Of a stretch of 64,000 nt of DNA, positions 3,348 to 15,087 are shown piece by piece. The position numbers and the translations under genes were made by a program. The DNA is taken from NCBI GenBank assembly GCA_027451745.1, contig DAIDIP010000001.1, positions 186,001-250,000 on the forward strand. The letters are read 5' to 3'. Each line of letters starts with the position of its first letter. Position 1 is the first letter of the stretch. The notes beneath the pieces are model-generated. The model had not been told where the DNA came from and did no database searches. It worked only from the letters and a program-made list of their open reading frames with translations. Source of the stretch: Candidatus Melainabacteria bacterium. Its GTDB lineage: Bacteria > Cyanobacteriota > Vampirovibrionia > Obscuribacterales > Obscuribacteraceae.

Positions 3348-4526
3348 CTACGAAGTAGCTCTTATTAACGTTTTAGCTTCAGAATTTTGACTTTTGCCAA
3401 ATAGCTGTTCTTTATTCTTTTTGAGGAAAGTCTGAGCACGCTGTGATTGAGCAACAAAATGATCTTGGCAAACGCGTACAGTATCTATGGTGACGTCTCT
3501 AAATTTAAGTCCAGTAGATCGCAGTTGATCTAGGGCAGCTGTTTGAAATTGCCAGGGATGGGCCGCAATATCATTATTAACGGCGGTAAAGTCTAGCCAC
3601 ATTTTCATTCTGCGATCTATACCTGTAGGTGGTACTTCGCTTGGATGGCAATAATAATGTACTTCATTGACATTCCATATGCTTCCCCACTGTTTAACAA
3701 CTTCAGCAACAGTTGGCAAAGTCTCATGACGAGAAGTTAGATGAACTATAGAACCATTAGGCAAATCATTACAAGCTGCAACAAATCCAGCTTTAAAGGC
3801 ATCTTGATGAATCATATGTAATTTAACCATAGGGGCGATGAAGTGGAGAACGCTTCTAGAGTGTCCACATATAAATTTTTCAAATGCTGCCCAGAACTGA
3901 TAAAGCCCATAAGCTTTCCCGTTATAATGCCCTTTGCGACTATCGCCAATTACAATGCTTGGTCTAATGATCAAAAACGGTAGACCGCTATTGCTAATTA
4001 GCAATTCAGCTTCACGCTTAGAGCGGGTGTATTCAGTAGGATCTGCTTTTGGTGGTATTTTATGCAACATTTCATGCACTAATCCGTCAACAAAGCCACT
4101 ACTGAACGCAGTCGATAAATAAACAAAACGACTTATATCTAGACGCTTTCCCAGCTCGATAAGACTATTAGTCAGATCTATATTTACTTCTTTTAGTTTT
4201 TCAGTATCAAAATAATCTACGCTACCAGCACAATGAATAATTTCGGTTATACCTAAATCTTTCAATAACTCTGATAAATTTGGTACTTCGTTGACTGGAG
4301 GCAAGGAAATTGTTTCCAGCAAATCAAAATCTACTTTATCAATAATACCCTCAGCCAATAGATCCAATTTTATTTTTTCAATTACACTGGCTCTAGTATG
4401 TGGCTCACGCAACGGAGTAACAAGTCTGCGCCCCTGGCATAAAAATCCAGCTGCAACCAAACTACCAAGATATCCGGTAGCACCTATCAATAGCGCTTTG
4501 TTTTTTTCTATCATTGTATTAGACAC
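3348..4526 (-). CDS. NAD(P)-dependent SDR, thioester-reductase / fatty-acyl-reductase-like
   Basis: Extended short-chain dehydrogenase/reductase. The Rossmann motif GATGYLG lies at residues 15-21, YLSTA at 136-140, and the catalytic Y166-x3-K170 in the block EYTRSKREAE. The fold resembles the NAD_binding_4 group (fatty acyl-CoA reductases and the thioester-reductase domain of carboxylic acid reductases), which reduce acyl thioesters to aldehydes or alcohols. Its start overlaps the stop of the upstream degenerate ADO-like gene by eight bases, so translation is probably coupled; an ATG at 4514 is an alternative to the GTG at 4526. Being last in an operon led by an ADO-like oxygenase, it may supply fatty aldehyde. 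Substrate and direction are inference; a sugar epimerase or a 3-beta-HSD-like role is the main alternative. Confidence 0.72.
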   Translation of the reverse strand: MSNTMIEKNKALLIGATGYLGSLVAAGFLCQGRRLVTPLREPHTRASVIEKIKLDLLAEGIIDKVDFDLLETISLPPVNEVPNLSELLKDLGITEIIHCAGSVDYFDTEKLKEVNIDLTNSLIELGKRLDISRFVYLSTAFSSGFVDGLVHEMLHKIPPKADPTEYTRSKREAELLISNSGLPFLIIRPSIVIGDSRKGHYNGKAYGLYQFWAAFEKFICGHSRSVLHFIAPMVKLHMIHQDAFKAGFVAACNDLPNGSIVHLTSRHETLPTVAEVVKQWGSIWNVNEVHYYCHPSEVPPTGIDRRMKMWLDFTAVNNDIAAHPWQFQTAALDQLRSTGLKFRDVTIDTVRVCQDHFVAQSQRAQTFLKKNKEQLFGKSQNSEAKTLIRATS

Positions 4527-5166
4527 CCATTAAAGCACTGGTTAAATACCCTACGATTTTTCTTCGTTCCATTCCCAAATTTGTACAAGTTAGTACCAAT
4601 TCGGCTACAAAACTACCCATAAGATCAGAAAAGCTAATATCAAATTGCTCGCTAAAATGCTGGTCTAAGCTTTCGCCCAAAGCATCTAGTCGCAAAATCA
4701 CTGGCTTGGATATGTCTATGAACGCAGAATAAATTTGCTCAGCGGTACCGATTCTTTCTTTAATTGCTGTGGTAATTTTGGTACCAATTGAATCTTGGGC
4801 TTTTAATCCCACCGAACAAAGATGATGCGTAGCCGCAGTAAACGATTCGCTATCTTTAAATGTATCGTAAATTGTTTTGCCCAGCACCTCTAGCAATAGC
4901 CCCTGTATTAAGAGCGTGTCTTTCTCAGAAGAACTAGTCGCTGCATCAAGCAATGCTTTTACTGGCTGGTCCAGACTAGTATTTTCCATAGCTTTATTAT
5001 CTGGTACACGTGAGAACAATAGACTTACTAGTTCTTTCTTTTCTGGAGTGGCCAAAGCAGAACAAAATTTTTCATATTGACTTAGAGCCAAAGCTTCAAA
5101 GTTATGAAGTACGGTCCATAATAATATTTCGCTATCAGTTAATTGGGCAGTATCACTTGCAAGCAT
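4519..5166 (-). CDS. degenerate paralog of the ADO-like di-iron protein
   Basis: An all-helical 215-aa protein that lines up by eye with its upstream neighbour. NFEALALSQYEKF (22-34) matches the first metal helix, LLIQGLLLEVLGKTIYDTF (85-103) matches the third, and NLGMERRKIVGY near the end matches the neighbour's VGFEQRRATKHV. Two ligand-type glutamates are kept (E24 and E93). The two ExxH pairs are lost: the position of ExxH in helix 2 reads PDNK (55-58) and that in helix 4 reads QDSI (124-127). It therefore probably cannot hold a di-iron centre and could be a partner or regulatory subunit. It starts 14 bases after the ADO-like stop and overlaps the SDR start. Homology is inferred from pattern alignment, not from a search. 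Confidence 0.6.
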   Translation of the reverse strand: MLASDTAQLTDSEILLWTVLHNFEALALSQYEKFCSALATPEKKELVSLLFSRVPDNKAMENTSLDQPVKALLDAATSSSEKDTLLIQGLLLEVLGKTIYDTFKDSESFTAATHHLCSVGLKAQDSIGTKITTAIKERIGTAEQIYSAFIDISKPVILRLDALGESLDQHFSEQFDISFSDLMGSFVAELVLTCTNLGMERRKIVGYLTSALMGV

Positions 5167-5180
5167 GGGAATGTCTCTAA

Positions 5181-5918
5181 TTATTTGGTTTTTTCGCCTC
5201 GACGATATTTGTGGAAAAGAGGCATAAACATATTCACAACATGTTTTGTAGCTCTTCTTTGTTCAAAGCCGACTTTCTCTAATAACTGCGTATATCCGTC
5301 CATCATAGCACCGGCACAATCTGCACCAGACATGCCAATTTTGTCCAAATACTCAGCAATATTCATCATTGTGCCGCCAATACAATCAATACCTTGGATA
5401 TTGGCATATTCAGCCAGCTTTTGAAATTCTTCATGAGCATCGAAAAAGCGCAAACGCAAATAACGTAAAATCCAGTCAACATGATAATTTTCTTCATCAA
5501 GAGCTTTTTGGAAAACTTCGTGAGTACCTGGATATTTATGAGCTATTGGAAGAAAAGACTCATAAGTAGCTATTGCTAGACTTTCAACAATGAAACCTTG
5601 AACAATAGCTAAAGCTTCGAAATTTTTATCAGCATAATGTTGGTCTACTTGAGAAATAAGATATCCCAATTCATTATCAGCAAATTCTTTATCCGGCTCA
5701 ATGCCATTTTTTCGGCTAGCATCAAGGAACCAACCGCCATGTTGAGCCTCCATTCGGGCAAACTTTGTTAATAAAGGGGCAAATTCTTCTTTAAGGTCGG
5801 CCATCAAAAGATAAATCTTAGATGCAACCTTTTCTCCAAAAACGGCTAATCCCATGAGCTTATTGATCGATTCTTGCTCAAGTAGTGGCACCGCTGCACA
5901 GTCCGCAACCGATTGCAT
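5181..5918 (-). CDS. ADO-like ferritin-fold di-iron oxygenase (aldehyde-deformylating oxygenase family)
   Basis: A 245-aa helical protein with a full set of di-iron ligands: E29 (FGEK), E57 and H60 (ARMEAQH), E112 (FIVESLAIATY), E143 and H146 (EENYH). The spacings of 28, 55 and 31 residues nearly equal the 28, 55 and 29 I recall for cyanobacterial aldehyde-deformylating oxygenase, which turns C(n) fatty aldehydes into C(n-1) alkanes using O2. The segment FLPIAHKYP matches the family's YIPVAD region, and VGFEQRR near the end matches its C-terminal helix. AGGGGAGG lies four bases upstream of the ATG at 5918, which fixes the start; a longer frame to 5939 lacks this. It leads an operon with a degenerate paralog and an SDR. 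Family membership is strong; substrate and reaction are inference. Confidence 0.8.
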   Translation of the reverse strand: MQSVADCAAVPLLEQESINKLMGLAVFGEKVASKIYLLMADLKEEFAPLLTKFARMEAQHGGWFLDASRKNGIEPDKEFADNELGYLISQVDQHYADKNFEALAIVQGFIVESLAIATYESFLPIAHKYPGTHEVFQKALDEENYHVDWILRYLRLRFFDAHEEFQKLAEYANIQGIDCIGGTMMNIAEYLDKIGMSGADCAGAMMDGYTQLLEKVGFEQRRATKHVVNMFMPLFHKYRRGEKTK

Positions 5919-6327: not shown

Positions 6328-6357
6328 CATCGTATTGTATAGTTGGGGATAGCAAAT

Positions 6358-9300
6358 TTGAGAGGCAGTAGCCAGAATCTATTAACGAACCTATCACAAT
6401 TATTATCGTCTTCTGGCAAGAGCGCGATACATAGCTTGCCACAGAAGTTCATTCTTGACGATCCTCCACTTAGATCCGAGCTTTTTAGCGCTGATCAAAT
6501 GGAGCAGTATGGCAAAAAACTTGCTGCATCGCATCGATTAAGCGCCGAACGGTATCCAGACCAACTTCTAAAACGATTATCTGAAAACGAAACTGTGCTT
6601 ACTGAGGGTTTGCACCTGCTCACAGTGGCAGTAAGAGAAGGTCGGCGCATAACTCCTGCTGAAGAATGGCTTGTAGACAACTTTTATTTGATAGAAGAAC
6701 AGATTCGGCTAGCCAAAAGACATCTGCCAAAAAATTATAGTAAGCAATTACCACGTCTAGAAGGTGGGCGTTCTGCAGGACTTCCTCGTGTATATGATAT
6801 AGCTCTGGAAATAATTTCTCATGGCGATGGACGCATTGACCCTGACAGTCTTAGTCGTTTTATAGTCGCTTATCAAAGCGTTCAACATTTAAAACTAGGC
6901 GAATTATGGGCTATACCAATTATGCTTCGCTTAGCTTTAATCGAGAATTTGCGAAGAATTGCAGGACGCGTGGCAAGGAATAGAATTGAGCGAGACCAGG
7001 CTGATTTTTGGGCGCAGCAAATGATTGAGATTGCTGAAAACGATCCGAAAAATCTAATTTTAGTTATTGCTGATATGGCTCGATCAAAGCCACCTATGGG
7101 AGGGTCTTTTGTTGCTGAGCTTGTACGTCGCTTACAAGGACAAAGTGCTGCTTTGGCTTTAGCCCTACCTCTAACTTGGATTGAACAATGGCTTTCTGAA
7201 TCCGGGTTGACTATCGCCCAGTTGATACATTCTGATTCACAACAGCAAGCGATAGAGCAGGTTTCAATAAGTAATTCGATAGCCAGTCTGCGATTTTTAG
7301 AGTCAATGAATTGGCAAGATTTTGTAGAGAGCAAAAGTATTGTCGAACAAACTTTACGACAAGATCCAACTGGCACATATGCAAATATGGATTTCGCTAC
7401 GCGAGATCATTATCGTCATGTAATAGAAAAGATGGCCAAGCATACACGGTTACCAGAGGCTAGATTAGCACAATTAGCTATCAAGCTAGCTCAAGACGCT
7501 ATGCATTCTAACGGAAGAGATCTACAAGCGGGGCATGTTGGCTACTACTTAATAGATGATGGTTTGCTACAACTCCAGAAGGCTGCCGGAATTCAAAATC
7601 CTATCGGAGCAATCTTAGAGATCAATCATTATCCTATCCATTTAGTTATATATGTAGCATTTATTTTATTAATCTCCATTCTTTGTACACTGCCTCCGAT
7701 TCTATACCTATACTCACTCAGTGTACGTGTATGGATTTTGATAGCCGTTAGTGTCAGTTTATTCATCGGCATAAGCCAATTTGCAATAACTATAGTTAAT
7801 TGGTTGGTTACTCTAGTAGTGAAGCCACATGCTTTGCCTCGAATGGACTTTAGCGAAGGAATACCTTTAGATTGCCGTACATTGGTTGTTATACCGAGCA
7901 TGCTACTTAATGCACCGCATGTCGAAGAATTGGTGGCTGCATTAGAAGTTCATTATTTAGCAAATCAGGACAGTAATTTACACTTTGGACTGCTCACTGA
8001 TTTTAAAGATTCCAAACAAGAAAAAACCCCTTCCGATGACGCACTTTTGGCGCTATGCAAAAAAAGAATTGATGCTTTAAATGAAAAATATAGTAATGGC
8101 ACAGATAACACATTTTTCCTTTTCCAAAGGCCGCGAAAATGGAATGCGAACGAGCAACTTTGGATGGGATACGAACGTAAACGAGGCAAACTTGGTGATT
8201 TAAACGCCTTACTCCGTGATTATGCTGAAGATCGTTTTCTTCTTATAGCAGGTAAGACTAGAATTCTATCTGGAGTCAAGTATGTCATTACTCTTGATAC
8301 GGATACCCGATTACCACGTGACGAGGGAAAACAGCTTGCCGCGGCAATGGCTCATCCGTTAAATCACCCTCGAATTGATAACAGAAAACGCATTGTGATT
8401 AAGGGTCATGGTATTCTTCAGCCCCGTGTTTCAACAGCTCTACCAGACAGCAATAGATCGTTTTATGCTTTTTTCAATAGTAGTGAAGCAGGCATTGATC
8501 CTTATACACGCGCAGTATCAAACGTTTATCAAGACTTGTTTGATCAAGGATCGTTTATTGGCAAGGGTATTTATGATGTCGATGCTTTTGAACATGTGCT
8601 TAAAGACCGCTTTCCAGAAAATCGTATCCTTAGTCATGACCTCATAGAAGGTTGTTATATAAGGTCAGGATTACTAAGTGATTTGGAGCTTTACGAGAGT
8701 TATCCACTATCTTATATAGTAGATAACTTACGACAACAACGCTGGATCCGTGGTGATTGGCAATTAATAGGATGGCTTTTACCCACGGTATTGAACGCTA
8801 AACTGCGGCGTGATAAAAACCCCTTATCCGCTCTTTCCAAATGGAAACTTTTGGACAATTTGCGACGCAGCCTAGTTATGCCCTCACTTTTTTTCATACT
8901 GGTACTTTCTTGGTGCTTATTGCCGCCGACCAGATTATGGACAATCATTGTTTTGGCAATTATTTTCACACCGCTTTTTTTCATGTCTTTATTTAGGCTT
9001 ATTCGCAAACCAGAAAATGTGCCACTTATTCAACACTGGTCTTCAATTAGATCTGCTGCACAAAGGCAGTTGATCCAGGAAATATTTGCTCTTGCAAATC
9101 TTCCTTATGAGACTGTGTCCAATTTAAGTACTATTGTTCAGACTATTGTACGTGTTGTCTTTACTCATAAAAAACTTTTACAATGGAGTACAGCACGTCA
9201 AACTGAAGATCAAGGACAAAGTCATATCTTTGCCTTCTACCAGCGCATGTGGTGTGCTCCGATTCTCACAATACTATTGGCATTTTATTTAGCCATAGCA

Positions 9301-12300
9301 AAAAGTTATGCTATCGTATCTACCTATCCTATTTTGGTTCTATGGTTTGTATCTCCTGTACTTGCTTGGTGGGTTAGTCAGCCCCGCAAAGTACGGATAT
9401 ATGAGCTAAGTGCAGCACAGAAGTTGTTTCTTCGTACTCTGTCCCGTAAGACATGGTTTTTCTTTGAAAGTTTTGTTAACGCTGAAGAGAATTGGTTGCC
9501 TCCCGATAATTATCAAGAAAATCGACCAATCGCCGTTACCCATCGGACTTCTCCAACTAATATAGGCTTAGCTTTATTATCAAACTTATCAGCCTATGAT
9601 TTTGGTTATATTTCAATGGGCCGACTGGTAGGACTCACCGGCAATACTTTGCGTACCATGGCTTCCTTAGAACGCTATCGAGGACATTTTTACAACTGGT
9701 ATGATACCCAAACTCTTCAACATCTCTTTCCTGCTTATGTTTCAACAGTAGATAGTGGCAATTTAGCCGGAAGTCTTCTTACTTTAGAATTTGGTCTTAA
9801 TAGCCTGCCGAGTGACCAGATTATAAACAGTCAATTATATGAAGGACTTTGGGACACCTTGGTCCTGCTAGATAATTCGTTGAATCATTCAAAATTAAAA
9901 AGCATAGCCCAAATCAAAGATCATCTTGAATTGGCTAAACAAAAACCACCATCAAACATAAAAGCAACTAAATTGTTGTTAGAACAGCTCACGAAGCTTG
10001 CCCAAGATATTACTAACGATATAGATATCCACACTCAAAGTGATGAATATTTATGGGCAAACGCATTAATGCAAGAATGTGCAGAAGCGCTTGAAGAATT
10101 GAAGATGTTGATGCCTTGGACGACTCTCAATGAATTACCAATTGATTTAAGTGGTTTTCCTGATTTAGATACTATTCCTACCTTAAGACAATTGGCAAGC
10201 TTTGAAGAACAATTGCCGCAAAAAATTTCTGATATTGACAACAGCGAGCAATATTGCCCTGTGACAGAAAGAGATAAGCCGTATCTTGAATTATTCCGAA
10301 CAATTCTCCAGGGCAGTAGGCTAGCGAAAGAAAGGATCAGTACTATACGTTTTCTGGCGAATATAGCCGCTGAATTGAGAAGTTTTAACTATGATTTTCT
10401 GTTTGACAAAACCAGACGACTTTTATCTATAGGTTATAACGTCAGCGAACATAGACTAGATCATAGCTATTACGACCTCCTTGCTTCCGAAGCTCGACTG
10501 ACATATTTTTTGGGTATTGCTCAAGGACATATTCCCAAAGAAAGTTGGTTCGCTCTTGGACGTTTGTTAACTAACACAGGTGGTGAACCTGTCCTTGTTT
10601 CATGGAGCGGCTCTATGTTCGAATACTTAATGCCGCTTTTATTTATGCCAAGCTATGAAAATACGCTGCTTGATGAAACCTGTCGGGCAGCTATTAAAAG
10701 ACAAATTGAATATCTAAAAAATCGTAATATTCCCTGGGGAATTTCAGAGTGTGGTTATAATATTGTCGACTTGCGTGCCAACTATCAGTATAAAGCTTTT
10801 GGTGTCCCTGGGCTTGGACTCAAGCGTGGCTTAGCTGAAGATACAGTCATTGCTCCTTATGCCAGTGTCTTAGCGCTTATGCTGGAACCAGAAGAAGCAT
10901 ATTCCAATTTATTGAGATTATCTGCCGATAACTTTATGGGTAAATATGGTTTTTATGAGGCCATAGACTACACACCTTCTCGCCTTTCTCGCGGCCAAGC
11001 GTTTGCTATCATCGAGTCTTTCATGGCTCACCATCAGGGCATGAGCTTTCTTGCTTTAAATCATTTGCTTTTCAATAAGGCTATGCCAAAAAGATTTGGG
11101 CTTGATCCTTCAGTTCAGGCGACTACTCTTTTGCTGCATGAACGCGTGCCAGTAACAGAAATAGCTGAGTTGCGTACAAGTGAGGCAGCCGAAATACGCC
11201 CTGAGACTCATGAAGGACCAGTACCGGTCAGAATTTTTGATACACCCAATACAAATGCTCCAGAAATACAATTACTTTCAAATGGGCGTTTTCACCTAAT
11301 GGTCAGCAATGCTGGCGGAAGTTATAGCGCCTGGAAAGACTTGGCTGTTACTCGCTGGTATGAAGATAGTACTCTCGATAATTGGGGAACCTTTTGTTAT
11401 ATACGCGATGAAGAAACATCTGAATTCTGGTCGATTGCCTATCAGCCGACACATCAAAAGCTTGAAAGCTATGAAGCAATTTTTTCTCCTGCTCGTGTGG
11501 AGTTCCGTGGTTCTAAGAATGACTTTGACGCTCACTGTGAAATAACAGTTTCTCCTGAAGATGACATTGAGGTGCGCAAGATACGCATTACCAATCGGGG
11601 ACGCAGAAGTAGAACTATATGTATTACCAGCTATGCAGAGGTTGTTTTGGCAACAGCTATCTCTGATGCAATACACCCTGCTTTTAGTAATCTTTTTGTA
11701 CAGACTGAGATAATCAAAGAACGTCAAGCAATCCTTTGTCAACGTCGGCCACGATCTCGGTCCGAGCAACCACCATGGATGTTTCATTTAATGGCTGTTC
11801 ACGGAGCGCAAATTAAAGCTGTTTCTTATGAAACCAGTCGAGCTAAGTTTATCGGTAGAGATCGTCATATTGATCATCCTCAGGCAATAAGAACTTCTGC
11901 TCCTCTTTCAGGCTCAGAAGGTTCCGTACTAGATCCCATAGTAGCTATTCGATATCTTATAACAATTGGTCCAGAAGAGTCTGCTCTTATAAATATCGTC
12001 ACAGGTATTGGTGAAACCAAAGAATTATGCCTGAGTCTGGTAGAGAAATATCAAGATTGGCATTTAGCCGAGCGAGTCTTCGATCTTGCAGTGACGCATA
12101 GCGATGTAGTGCTTCGGCAACTTAATGCTAGTGAAGCGGATGCTCAATTATACGCAAAACTTGCCAGTTCTATTGTTTATCCAAATGCCAATCTGAGAGC
12201 CGAAGCTACTATTATTGCCAAAAATCGCAGAGGACAATCGGGACTTTGGGGTTACGCAATATCTGGTGATCTACCAATAGTGCTTTTGAAGATTCAAGAT

Positions 12301-15087
12301 GCAGCAAATATCGATCTGGCACGGCAAATGATACAAGCTCATGCGTATTGGCGATTAAAAGGACTAAAAGTAGATTTAGTTATCTGGAACGAGGACCGTG
12401 CTGGTTACAGACAATTATTACAAGAACAAATATTGGGACTGATAGCAGCAGGAGCGGAAGCCAACTTAATTGATAAACCGAGTGGCATCTTTTTGAGATC
12501 CGCAGAACAAATTTCTACTGAGGATCGCATATTATTCGAATCTGTGGCGAGAATTATTATTAACGATGTGGATGGACCCTTGTCCCAGCAAACTACTAAA
12601 CGTGTAACGATAGATACTAGATTACCTCGCCTTTCTCCTGTTAAAAGTCATATTCAGGAACAAGCACCGCTTAATTTACCGCATCGTTCTGATCTGATTT
12701 TCTTCAACGGTTGCGGTGGGTTTACGGCAGACGGACGTGAATATGTAATAAGCACAATGTCAGGGCATAGTACACCGGCTCCTTGGTCAAACGTATTAGC
12801 CAATCCAATGTTTGGCACAGTAATAACTCAGAGCGGTTCAGCTTATACCTGGCGTGAGAATGCCCATGAATACCGTCTTACGCCTTGGCACAATGATCCA
12901 GTTAGCGATCTGTCTGGTGAGGCTATTTATATTCGCGATGAAGAGACTGGATATTTTTGGTCACCTACGCCTTTACCAACTCCTAGCAATACGCCTTATA
13001 CAAGTCGACATGGTTTTGGTTATTCCGTATTTGAGCATAAAGAAAACGGTATAAGTTCGGAACTTTGGGTGTATGTAGCTTTGGACGCTCCGATAAAATT
13101 TTCGGTGCTAAAGATCCGCAATGAATCACAAAGGCCAAGACGACTATCTGCTACCGGCTATGTAGAATGGGTGCTTTCAGATCTTAGGGCGAAATCGGCA
13201 ATGCACATAGTAACCGAGTTAGATCCTAAAAGTGGGGCTCTATTTGCTCGCAATCCATATTCTATGGAATTTCCCGATCACATTGCATTTTTTGATGTTG
13301 ATGATGTTAACCGCACCGTAAGCGGTAATAGAACAGAGTTTTTAGGACGAAATGGTACACTTTCCAATCCTGCCGCAATGAGTTCTACGCGCTTATCGGG
13401 AAAATTAGGCGCAGGGCTTGATCCTTGCGCAGCAATTCAAGTACCGTTCGAACTTGATGTTGGTGAAGAATACCAAGTTACTTTCAGACTTGGGGCTGGA
13501 TATGATACTGAAGACGCTACGGCTGTAGTAAATCGTTTTCGCGGGACGCAAGCTGCGCACACCGTTCTCTCTTCGATATTTGAATATTGGAAACACACTC
13601 TGGGCTCGGTATATATTGAAACGCCAGATCAATCTTTAAATGTTCTAGCTAACGGTTGGCTTTTATACCAAACTATTGCTGCACGACTTTGGGCTCGTAG
13701 TGGTTACTATCAATCTGGCGGTGCTTTCGGTTTTCGTGATCAACTTCAAGATGCAATGGCGCTTATTCATTCCGAGCCTATGCTATTGCGTGAACATTTA
13801 CTTTTATGTGCATCCCGTCAGTTTAGAGAAGGAGATGTCCAACACTGGTGGCATCCTCCCTCAGGTAGAGGTGTGCGCACACATTGCTCTGATGATTATC
13901 TTTGGTTACCACTTGCTACCTGTCGCTATGTATTGCACACCGGTGATACAGGTGTACTAGATGCCCAAATTCACTTTTTAGAGGGACGCCTTTTAAATCC
14001 CGAGGAGGATTCTTATTATGATTTACCAATTCGCTCGGATGAAGTAGCTAGCTTATATGAGCATTGTGTCCGATCTATACAAAAGGGCCTAGATTTTGGT
14101 GAACATGGCTTACCTTTAATGGCTGGTGGCGACTGGAATGACGGTATGAATCTAGTGGGCTACAAAGGCAAAGGCGAAAGTGTTTGGCTTGCATTTTTTC
14201 TTTATGATGTATTGAAACAATTTGCTAAGGTTGCTTATTTGCGCGGGGACGAAAATTTTGCCAAACATTGCCAAGAAAAAGCTAGTCAATTACAGGGCAA
14301 TATAGAAAAGCATGCTTGGGATGGAGAATGGTATCGTCGTGCCTATTTTGATAATGGTATGCCCTTAGGCTCTAAGTCCAATCCAGAATGTAAGATTGAT
14401 TCAATATCGCAAAGTTGGTCCGTGCTATCTACTGCAGGAGATCCAGAAAGACAATACCTAGCGATGCAATCAGTTGACAATCATCTAGTCAGGCGGAAAG
14501 AAAAATTAATTCAACTTCTCGATCCGCCTTTTGATAAATCAGATTTAGATCCGGGCTATATAAAAGGGTATGTGCCTGGGGTAAGAGAAAATGGCGGACA
14601 GTATACGCATGGTGCTATTTGGACTGTAATGGCCTTTGCTGCTTTAAAAAATAATGACAAGGCGTGGGAGTTATGGTCGATCATAAATCCGGTTAATCAC
14701 GGTACTTCGCAAGAAGAAATATCAACGTATAAAGTTGAGCCATATGTTGCTGCAGCGGACATTTATGCCATCTCCCCCCATATTGGACGCGGTGGCTGGA
14801 CATGGTACACAGGCTCAGCTGGTTGGATGTACCGTTTGATTACAGAATCTCTTCTAGGGCTTACTTTAGACATAGACAAACTATCATTTGCGCCTTGTTT
14901 ACCATCGCACTGGAATGAATTTAAATTGCATTATCGTTATAGGGAGACTACATATCATATAAATGTATTTCCAAAAGCTAGCAAGCAGACAAGTGTCGTT
15001 GTGGATGGGGTTGTCCAGACGGATGGCTTAATTCACTTAGTAGATGATCGGCACGATCATAATGTGGAAATCAAATTACCTTACTAA
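6358..15087 (+). CDS. ndvB: cyclic beta-1,2-glucan synthase (NdvB/ChvB type; GT84 + GH94)
   Basis: A giant inner-membrane protein of about 2,909 aa, close to the length of rhizobial and Brucella cyclic glucan synthases. These use UDP-glucose to build and cyclise periplasmic beta-1,2-glucan. Membrane segments lie near residues 424-490, 840-885 and 970-1010. Between the first two is the glycosyltransferase domain with DTDT (647-650) and QQRW (793-796). A glycoamylase-like middle region carries NWYDTQTLQHLFP. The C-terminal part has two beta-rich halves and a GH94 phosphorylase domain with GDWNDG (2591-2596), the part thought to set ring size. There is no ATG for the first 50 codons. I prefer the TTG at 6358 (GGGGA eight bases upstream) over the TTG at 6343. 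It is monocistronic and divergent from the ADO-like operon. Confidence 0.92.
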   Translation: MRGSSQNLLTNLSQLLSSSGKSAIHSLPQKFILDDPPLRSELFSADQMEQYGKKLAASHRLSAERYPDQLLKRLSENETVLTEGLHLLTVAVREGRRITPAEEWLVDNFYLIEEQIRLAKRHLPKNYSKQLPRLEGGRSAGLPRVYDIALEIISHGDGRIDPDSLSRFIVAYQSVQHLKLGELWAIPIMLRLALIENLRRIAGRVARNRIERDQADFWAQQMIEIAENDPKNLILVIADMARSKPPMGGSFVAELVRRLQGQSAALALALPLTWIEQWLSESGLTIAQLIHSDSQQQAIEQVSISNSIASLRFLESMNWQDFVESKSIVEQTLRQDPTGTYANMDFATRDHYRHVIEKMAKHTRLPEARLAQLAIKLAQDAMHSNGRDLQAGHVGYYLIDDGLLQLQKAAGIQNPIGAILEINHYPIHLVIYVAFILLISILCTLPPILYLYSLSVRVWILIAVSVSLFIGISQFAITIVNWLVTLVVKPHALPRMDFSEGIPLDCRTLVVIPSMLLNAPHVEELVAALEVHYLANQDSNLHFGLLTDFKDSKQEKTPSDDALLALCKKRIDALNEKYSNGTDNTFFLFQRPRKWNANEQLWMGYERKRGKLGDLNALLRDYAEDRFLLIAGKTRILSGVKYVITLDTDTRLPRDEGKQLAAAMAHPLNHPRIDNRKRIVIKGHGILQPRVSTALPDSNRSFYAFFNSSEAGIDPYTRAVSNVYQDLFDQGSFIGKGIYDVDAFEHVLKDRFPENRILSHDLIEGCYIRSGLLSDLELYESYPLSYIVDNLRQQRWIRGDWQLIGWLLPTVLNAKLRRDKNPLSALSKWKLLDNLRRSLVMPSLFFILVLSWCLLPPTRLWTIIVLAIIFTPLFFMSLFRLIRKPENVPLIQHWSSIRSAAQRQLIQEIFALANLPYETVSNLSTIVQTIVRVVFTHKKLLQWSTARQTEDQGQSHIFAFYQRMWCAPILTILLAFYLAIAKSYAIVSTYPILVLWFVSPVLAWWVSQPRKVRIYELSAAQKLFLRTLSRKTWFFFESFVNAEENWLPPDNYQENRPIAVTHRTSPTNIGLALLSNLSAYDFGYISMGRLVGLTGNTLRTMASLERYRGHFYNWYDTQTLQHLFPAYVSTVDSGNLAGSLLTLEFGLNSLPSDQIINSQLYEGLWDTLVLLDNSLNHSKLKSIAQIKDHLELAKQKPPSNIKATKLLLEQLTKLAQDITNDIDIHTQSDEYLWANALMQECAEALEELKMLMPWTTLNELPIDLSGFPDLDTIPTLRQLASFEEQLPQKISDIDNSEQYCPVTERDKPYLELFRTILQGSRLAKERISTIRFLANIAAELRSFNYDFLFDKTRRLLSIGYNVSEHRLDHSYYDLLASEARLTYFLGIAQGHIPKESWFALGRLLTNTGGEPVLVSWSGSMFEYLMPLLFMPSYENTLLDETCRAAIKRQIEYLKNRNIPWGISECGYNIVDLRANYQYKAFGVPGLGLKRGLAEDTVIAPYASVLALMLEPEEAYSNLLRLSADNFMGKYGFYEAIDYTPSRLSRGQAFAIIESFMAHHQGMSFLALNHLLFNKAMPKRFGLDPSVQATTLLLHERVPVTEIAELRTSEAAEIRPETHEGPVPVRIFDTPNTNAPEIQLLSNGRFHLMVSNAGGSYSAWKDLAVTRWYEDSTLDNWGTFCYIRDEETSEFWSIAYQPTHQKLESYEAIFSPARVEFRGSKNDFDAHCEITVSPEDDIEVRKIRITNRGRRSRTICITSYAEVVLATAISDAIHPAFSNLFVQTEIIKERQAILCQRRPRSRSEQPPWMFHLMAVHGAQIKAVSYETSRAKFIGRDRHIDHPQAIRTSAPLSGSEGSVLDPIVAIRYLITIGPEESALINIVTGIGETKELCLSLVEKYQDWHLAERVFDLAVTHSDVVLRQLNASEADAQLYAKLASSIVYPNANLRAEATIIAKNRRGQSGLWGYAISGDLPIVLLKIQDAANIDLARQMIQAHAYWRLKGLKVDLVIWNEDRAGYRQLLQEQILGLIAAGAEANLIDKPSGIFLRSAEQISTEDRILFESVARIIINDVDGPLSQQTTKRVTIDTRLPRLSPVKSHIQEQAPLNLPHRSDLIFFNGCGGFTADGREYVISTMSGHSTPAPWSNVLANPMFGTVITQSGSAYTWRENAHEYRLTPWHNDPVSDLSGEAIYIRDEETGYFWSPTPLPTPSNTPYTSRHGFGYSVFEHKENGISSELWVYVALDAPIKFSVLKIRNESQRPRRLSATGYVEWVLSDLRAKSAMHIVTELDPKSGALFARNPYSMEFPDHIAFFDVDDVNRTVSGNRTEFLGRNGTLSNPAAMSSTRLSGKLGAGLDPCAAIQVPFELDVGEEYQVTFRLGAGYDTEDATAVVNRFRGTQAAHTVLSSIFEYWKHTLGSVYIETPDQSLNVLANGWLLYQTIAARLWARSGYYQSGGAFGFRDQLQDAMALIHSEPMLLREHLLLCASRQFREGDVQHWWHPPSGRGVRTHCSDDYLWLPLATCRYVLHTGDTGVLDAQIHFLEGRLLNPEEDSYYDLPIRSDEVASLYEHCVRSIQKGLDFGEHGLPLMAGGDWNDGMNLVGYKGKGESVWLAFFLYDVLKQFAKVAYLRGDENFAKHCQEKASQLQGNIEKHAWDGEWYRRAYFDNGMPLGSKSNPECKIDSISQSWSVLSTAGDPERQYLAMQSVDNHLVRRKEKLIQLLDPPFDKSDLDPGYIKGYVPGVRENGGQYTHGAIWTVMAFAALKNNDKAWELWSIINPVNHGTSQEEISTYKVEPYVAAADIYAISPHIGRGGWTWYTGSAGWMYRLITESLLGLTLDIDKLSFAPCLPSHWNEFKLHYRYRETTYHINVFPKASKQTSVVVDGVVQTDGLIHLVDDRHDHNVEIKLPY

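Follow-up and report, generated by a model that had tools for sequence, protein, structure and literature searches.

A candidate divergent ADO-type operon with an ADO-fold pseudo-enzyme and a thioester-reductase-like dehydrogenase in a non-photosynthetic Obscuribacterales genome

Photosynthetic cyanobacteria, in which ADO-based alkane synthesis is known, make hydrocarbons by one of two routes (PMC3903477), and a survey of hydrocarbon genes in metagenomes reported ADO genes of cyanobacterial affiliation (PMC10176705). Among the described systems closest to the locus analysed here is the cyanobacterial AAR-ADO pair (complex 6jzy), in which, as here, an oxygenase gene lies beside the gene for an NAD(P)H-dependent reductase. 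In the solved complex, the acids E197, E201 and D202 on helix H7 of NpADO bind AAR (review PMC9743570), and in SeADO a hydrogen bond between Tyr21 and Tyr125 seals the tunnel (PMC4286721). Bulky insertions in the H4–H5 loop cut SeADO activity to at most half, and ADO activity has been described as low (PMC6469105).

The window, that is the whole 64,000-nt stretch of DNA analysed, corresponds to 186–250 kb of a 281-kb contig from a 3.0-Mb genome, and it contains three minus-strand open reading frames arranged head to tail from 5918 to 3348. Gene 1 (5181..5918, minus strand; ATG at 5918, stop at 5181) encodes an ADO-family di-iron protein of 245 aa, the middle gene (4519..5166, minus; ATG at 5166, stop at 4519) a pseudo-ADO of 215 aa, and gene 3 (3348..4514, minus; ATG at 4514, stop at 3348) an extended, thioester-reductase-like SDR of 388 aa. 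The close spacing described by the first-pass annotation is borne out: genes 1 and 2 are separated by 14 nt (5167..5180, minus; −1 to 21 nt in relatives) and genes 2 and 3 by 4 nt (4515..4518, minus), while an alternative GTG start of the SDR gene at 4526 would overlap the middle gene by 8 nt. Since the 4-nt spacer has no clear ribosome site, coupled translation of the middle and SDR genes is suggested. The motif GGGGAGG lies directly 5′ of the ATG of gene 1, and a promoter and terminator scan gave little above chance, with one promoter-like site (10 of 12 positions) 5′ of gene 1. The reading that we prefer, and that we consider evenly balanced between right and wrong, is that this operon is a self-contained divergent ADO-type pathway, in which a catalytic ADO and a pseudo-ADO would be fed by their own acyl-thioester reductase.

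The host is a non-photosynthetic member of the Obscuribacterales, with near relatives named Candidatus Melainabacteria and Candidatus Obscuribacterales. The annotation had seen no photosynthesis genes in the window, and this extends to the whole host genome, in which we found no photosynthetic reaction-centre gene. Two haem-copper oxidase genes are encoded, and the organism can therefore live with O2, in line with the published capacity of Obscuribacter for aerobic respiration (PMC4040986). The genome yielded no plant-type ferredoxin, its sole Fer2 match being a hydrogenase/complex-I-type subunit. Bidirectional [NiFe] hydrogenase-like genes lie elsewhere in the assembly (L080, G000:C2 near 11.2 kb), with a complex-I-type Fe-S subunit followed by the small and large hydrogenase subunits.

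The product of gene 1 matches PF11266 (Ald_deCOase) with 69.8 bits (E=4e-19; gathering cut-off 28 bits), and the scores for the ADO-like proteins of the window and of the four further genomes of the family in which our search of 60 relatives found one range from 61.7 to 70.2 bits. The Rubrerythrin model came second (39.5 bits) and was the sole other family to reach its cut-off. All significant PDB sequence matches were ADOs (best E 1e-15), as were those of a profile built from the five members (best 6e-17). At the Pfam level the protein belongs to the ADO family, as the annotation had proposed. PF11266 exceeded its cut-off in one of 14 control genomes. Weaker PF11266 matches in G004, G025, G118 and G012 were rejected as ADOs, being ferritin-like proteins of ∼390 aa whose next matches were AurF and the ribonucleotide reductase small chain; such an Obscuribacterales protein, with weak ADO, AurF and ribonucleotide reductase matches, is encoded at L018 (1225-2388) and also at L019-L021.

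The six di-iron ligands attributed to the protein by the annotation are all present (E29, E57/H60, E112 and E143/H146) and invariant in the five relatives, and align with E32, E60/H63, E115 and E144/H147 of a 231-aa cyanobacterial reference ADO (L054), whose numbering agrees with that of SeADO. Their spacing equals that of cyanobacterial ADO save for a 2-residue insertion in the H4–H5 loop, and comparison with ten cyanobacterial ADOs showed that the equivalents of Tyr39, Phe67, Gln110 and Tyr122 are kept as well. Identity to these ten sequences is 20–23%, whereas the other nine are 59–80% identical to the first of them, and a comparison of the ADO-like and cyanobacterial ADO profiles gave P=1e-14 over 206 columns. 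In an unrooted tree computed with no outgroup family, the cyanobacterial ADOs form one group (support 100/96) with the ADO-like sequences outside it, and the protein misses the TIGR04059 equivalog cut-off (69.3 vs 222.65 bits). By these sequence measures it appears to be a separate deep branch and, by the NCBI cut-off, is not an orthologue of cyanobacterial ADO. What it has in common with ADO (2oc5, 4kvq, 4rc5, 5ux2) is the fold family, the six ligands and their spacing, the Tyr39/Gln110/Tyr122 set and an aerobic setting; what it has in addition is a pseudo-ADO partner gene, non-photosynthetic hosts and a C-terminal extension (5181-5220, minus). The extension ends in KYRxGEKTK, which is nearly invariant across the five relatives.

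Further departures from cyanobacterial ADO concern the docking face, the lid and the tunnel. The AAR-docking acids are replaced by the invariant residues A199, G203 and A204, the Tyr21/Tyr125 latch is gone in all five ADO-like proteins (I18 and F122), and the tunnel positions F86/F87 have become Glu/Leu. The changes in lid, loop and tunnel suggest a different substrate gate or chain, and with docking face and latch lost and several tunnel positions altered, the substrate may differ from a C16/C18 aldehyde. The same tunnel, lid and docking-face differences lend themselves to another interpretation, namely that the protein is an O2-activating di-iron oxygenase acting not on a free fatty aldehyde but, for example, on a modified lipid or a carrier-bound chain, by hydroxylation, desaturation or N-oxygenation, with the middle protein again a partner subunit and the SDR acting down- or upstream on the product. 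The ferritin-like superfamily is chemically diverse, and the structural matches that come next for the paralogue include PaaC, AurF and CmlI. We nonetheless hold this interpretation to be possible but on the unlikely side: the significant PDB matches are all ADOs, Rubrerythrin scored lower than PF11266, and a thioester-reductase-like SDR as partner fits aldehyde chemistry.

Of the 50 family genomes covered by the search, 5 contain the complete set in unchanged order and none contains any of the genes singly; in all five carriers the three genes are adjacent, with intergenic spacers of −1 to 21 nt. Gene order is thus conserved in relatives, the point on which the annotation had chiefly staked its proposal. 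The middle gene is found in exactly the same five genomes, and in none of 292 genomes sampled across the phylum, the window's own genome apart; in a search with an SDR profile the five carriers each scored above 700 bits and nothing else exceeded 72 bits. Identity to the window proteins across the five genomes is 77–83% for the ADO-like protein, 46–63% for the middle protein and 54–71% for the SDR. In all three genes synonymous sites are saturated or near-saturated and dN/dS, where computable, is 0.05–0.17, so that none of them looks to be decaying; conserved at these levels and with low dN/dS in five genomes, the three-gene set is not a product of chance. No relatives were found in plasmids, phages or viral contigs.

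The flanks vary between carriers: the window and its congener have an M48 peptidase gene and a GH94-type gene, G019 has a histidine kinase gene and G021 a LytR-type gene. The GH94 cyclic glucan synthase-type gene of the window (6343-15087, plus strand; 2914 aa) diverges from the operon; a GH94-type gene also adjoins the operon in L008, lies ∼4 kb upstream in L009 and was not seen in L010 or L011. In G031 a fatty-acid desaturase gene (PF00487; L009 10061-10900, minus) lies just downstream and converges on the SDR gene, a position that hints at acyl-chain metabolism. The genomes are apparently metagenome assemblies (two records are titled MAG), and contamination or mis-assembly could in principle have placed a cyanobacterial gene among them. 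We rejected this explanation and give it practically no weight: the contig spans 281 kb, the set occurs in five separate genomes, two of which share flanking genes, and its identity to the cyanobacterial ADOs compared is too low.

The middle protein had no significant match in searches of Pfam and NCBIfam families. Its AlphaFold2 model (pLDDT 87.6) superposed best, by Foldseek against the PDB, on ADO 4kvq (TM 0.75, rmsd 2.9), with most ADOs, which gave the best full-length superpositions, at TM 0.6–0.75 and PaaC, AurF and ribonucleotide reductase at about 0.4–0.55; the E-values were modest, the best being 4e-3. An hhalign comparison restricted to the five close ADO-like rows gave a match probability of 9%, which rose to 64% (P=6.6e-5) once the cyanobacterial ADOs were included. 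The joint alignment shows that the protein keeps E24, Y31, Q88, E93 and Y100, the equivalents of Glu32, Tyr39, Gln110, Glu115 and Tyr122, while the equivalents of E60, H63, E144 and H147 are missing in all five relatives, leaving two of the six ligands; the first ExxH motif was lost by deletion. The annotation had described a degenerate second copy without four ligands, and both parts of that description agree with the model and the alignment, in which both ExxH motifs are gone throughout. With ADO as the best superposition and four ligands lost in all five members, the middle protein is by its predicted structure an ADO-fold pseudo-enzyme.

In PaaA/PaaC of phenylacetyl-CoA monooxygenase, and in the alpha and beta subunits of bacterial multicomponent monooxygenases, the ferritin-like di-iron subunit that performs catalysis is joined by a paralogue in which metal ligands have been lost. 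The present pair resembles these systems, and PaaAC appears in the Foldseek list, but here both partners would have the ADO fold, and the pairing is deduced from gene neighbourhood. The pseudo-ADO, with four of six ligands lost, would be unable to hold a di-iron centre and is most likely a non-catalytic partner of the ADO-like protein, as PaaC is for PaaA and beta for alpha. It may dock on the H6–H8 face, where cyanobacterial ADO binds AAR, and may gate the tunnel or pass on substrate or electrons. That it is instead a regulator or lipid carrier and no oxygenase subunit would be compatible with our preferred reading and with the rival ones, and would go with its evolving much faster than the catalytic gene (46–63% vs 77–83% identity); its invariable presence with the other two genes and its retention of five ADO core residues speak for a subunit, and we think the regulator or carrier role unlikely.

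The third protein matches PF07993 (NAD_binding_4) with 66 bits (cut-off 20.1) and PF01370 (Epimerase) with 51 bits, and its best NCBIfam match by E-value, in all five members, is the thioester reductase model TIGR01746, although below the cut-off (59.1 vs 213.35 bits). A profile of the five SDRs searched against the PDB placed R domains first (MxaA 6e-11, a PKS R domain 1e-8, AusA 2e-6), the first sugar enzyme following at 2e-4. Invariant are G11, G14 and G17 of the glycine-rich loop, the Y162-x3-K166 catalytic pair and Arg36, which follows beta-2, aligns with the R-domain ‘LVRS’ motif and suggests NADPH use. With NRPS/PKS R domains (TIGR01746; MxaA 4u7w, AusA 4f6c) the protein shares the NADPH-type Rossmann half, the Ser-Thr/Tyr/Lys region and the LVR motif; unlike them it stands alone, falls under the curated cut-off and has an unmatched C-terminal half. 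Confidence in its structure model is low (pLDDT 67), and a Foldseek search with this model did not tell R domains and sugar epimerases apart. The annotation's assignment of the SDR to the acyl-thioester reductase type thus holds for the sequence profiles and for PF07993, while the fold search did not discriminate. Thioester reduction is the likeliest role on the profile evidence, short of proof because the model is weak and the fold search non-discriminating.

Alternatively, the SDR could be a sugar-nucleotide or steroid-type dehydrogenase/epimerase in an operon for envelope polysaccharide or lipid modification, its link with aldehydes being accidental. The PF01370 score, a match to the phrog_540 epimerase, the mixing of epimerases with R domains by Foldseek and the adjoining GH94 glucan synthase-like gene in the window and L008 are in keeping with such a role. 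We consider it quite improbable, as in all five SDRs the top-scoring models are NAD_binding_4 and TIGR01746, the PDB profile search favours the best R domains over the best epimerase by two to seven orders of magnitude, the operon has no GH94 gene beside it in G021 or G019, and Arg36 points to NADPH. Elsewhere in the assembly, a GH3-type acyl adenylase-like gene lies within an SDR gene cluster (L022, G000:C13 near 31-35 kb), possibly a second aldehyde or lipid locus.

The absence of AAR noted in the annotation extends beyond the window: the best TIGR04058 match in the host genome scores 21.8 bits (cut-off 449.7) and none of the 50 family genomes exceeds the cut-off. The SDR itself was rejected as an AAR, hhalign matching the nucleotide-binding loop only. 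With the docking acids lost from the ADO-like protein and AAR absent from the 50 family genomes, neither half of the AAR contact is present. The locus differs from the AAR-ADO pair in that its reductase is an extended thioester-reductase-type SDR, and in its extra middle gene, which is absent from the sampled cyanobacteria.

In the ADO-type pathway that we prefer, the SDR would take the place of AAR, forming an aldehyde from acyl-ACP or acyl-CoA by NADPH-dependent reduction of the thioester. The ADO-like protein, which has the canonical ADO ligand set, would then bind two metal ions and use O2 and electrons to remove C1 of the aldehyde, releasing formate and a Cn-1 hydrocarbon. An acyl chain is the probable substrate, though not necessarily the C16/C18 aldehyde used in cyanobacteria. 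Of the three genes, gene 1 shows the highest conservation, as expected for the catalyst. In favour of this pathway are the nine ADO metal and inner residues that are kept, the ADO-type fold and retained core residues of the middle protein, the AAR contact lost on both sides, the strict linkage of the genes and an O2-capable host, together with the apparent proximity of the SDR to R domains, which reduce carrier-bound acyl groups. Against it, the ADO-like protein is distant from ADO (20–23% identity, the TIGR04059 shortfall, the altered tunnel and lid, the H4–H5 insertion), the SDR lies under the TIGR01746 cut-off and has a weak model, and no plant-type ferredoxin was found. More specifically, and tentatively, with the balance leaning somewhat towards doubt, this heterotrophic sister lineage of cyanobacteria would make hydrocarbons with a heteromeric ADO, composed of a catalytic ADO and an obligate ADO-fold pseudo-enzyme, and a thioester-reductase-type SDR; the system may have its origin in a deep ADO-family branch older than the AAR-ADO pair of cyanobacteria.

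In the open-licence literature we found no paper joining ADO or hydrocarbon biosynthesis with Melainabacteria, and the Obscuribacter and Vampirovibrionia papers in it that mention ‘alkane’ concern other subjects by title and abstract; no earlier report of an ADO/pseudo-ADO/SDR operon was found there. The operon may represent a new way of making hydrocarbons or related products, and enzyme engineering gains from it an ADO sequence far beyond known diversity. An apparently deep ADO branch, accompanied by another reductase and a pseudo-ADO partner and present in the phylum's non-photosynthetic class, allows a direct test of which pathway components are ancestral, and bears on the origin of cyanobacterial alkane synthesis. 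If the proposed pathway is true, it would constitute a source of hydrocarbons in dark habitats that has so far gone uncounted.
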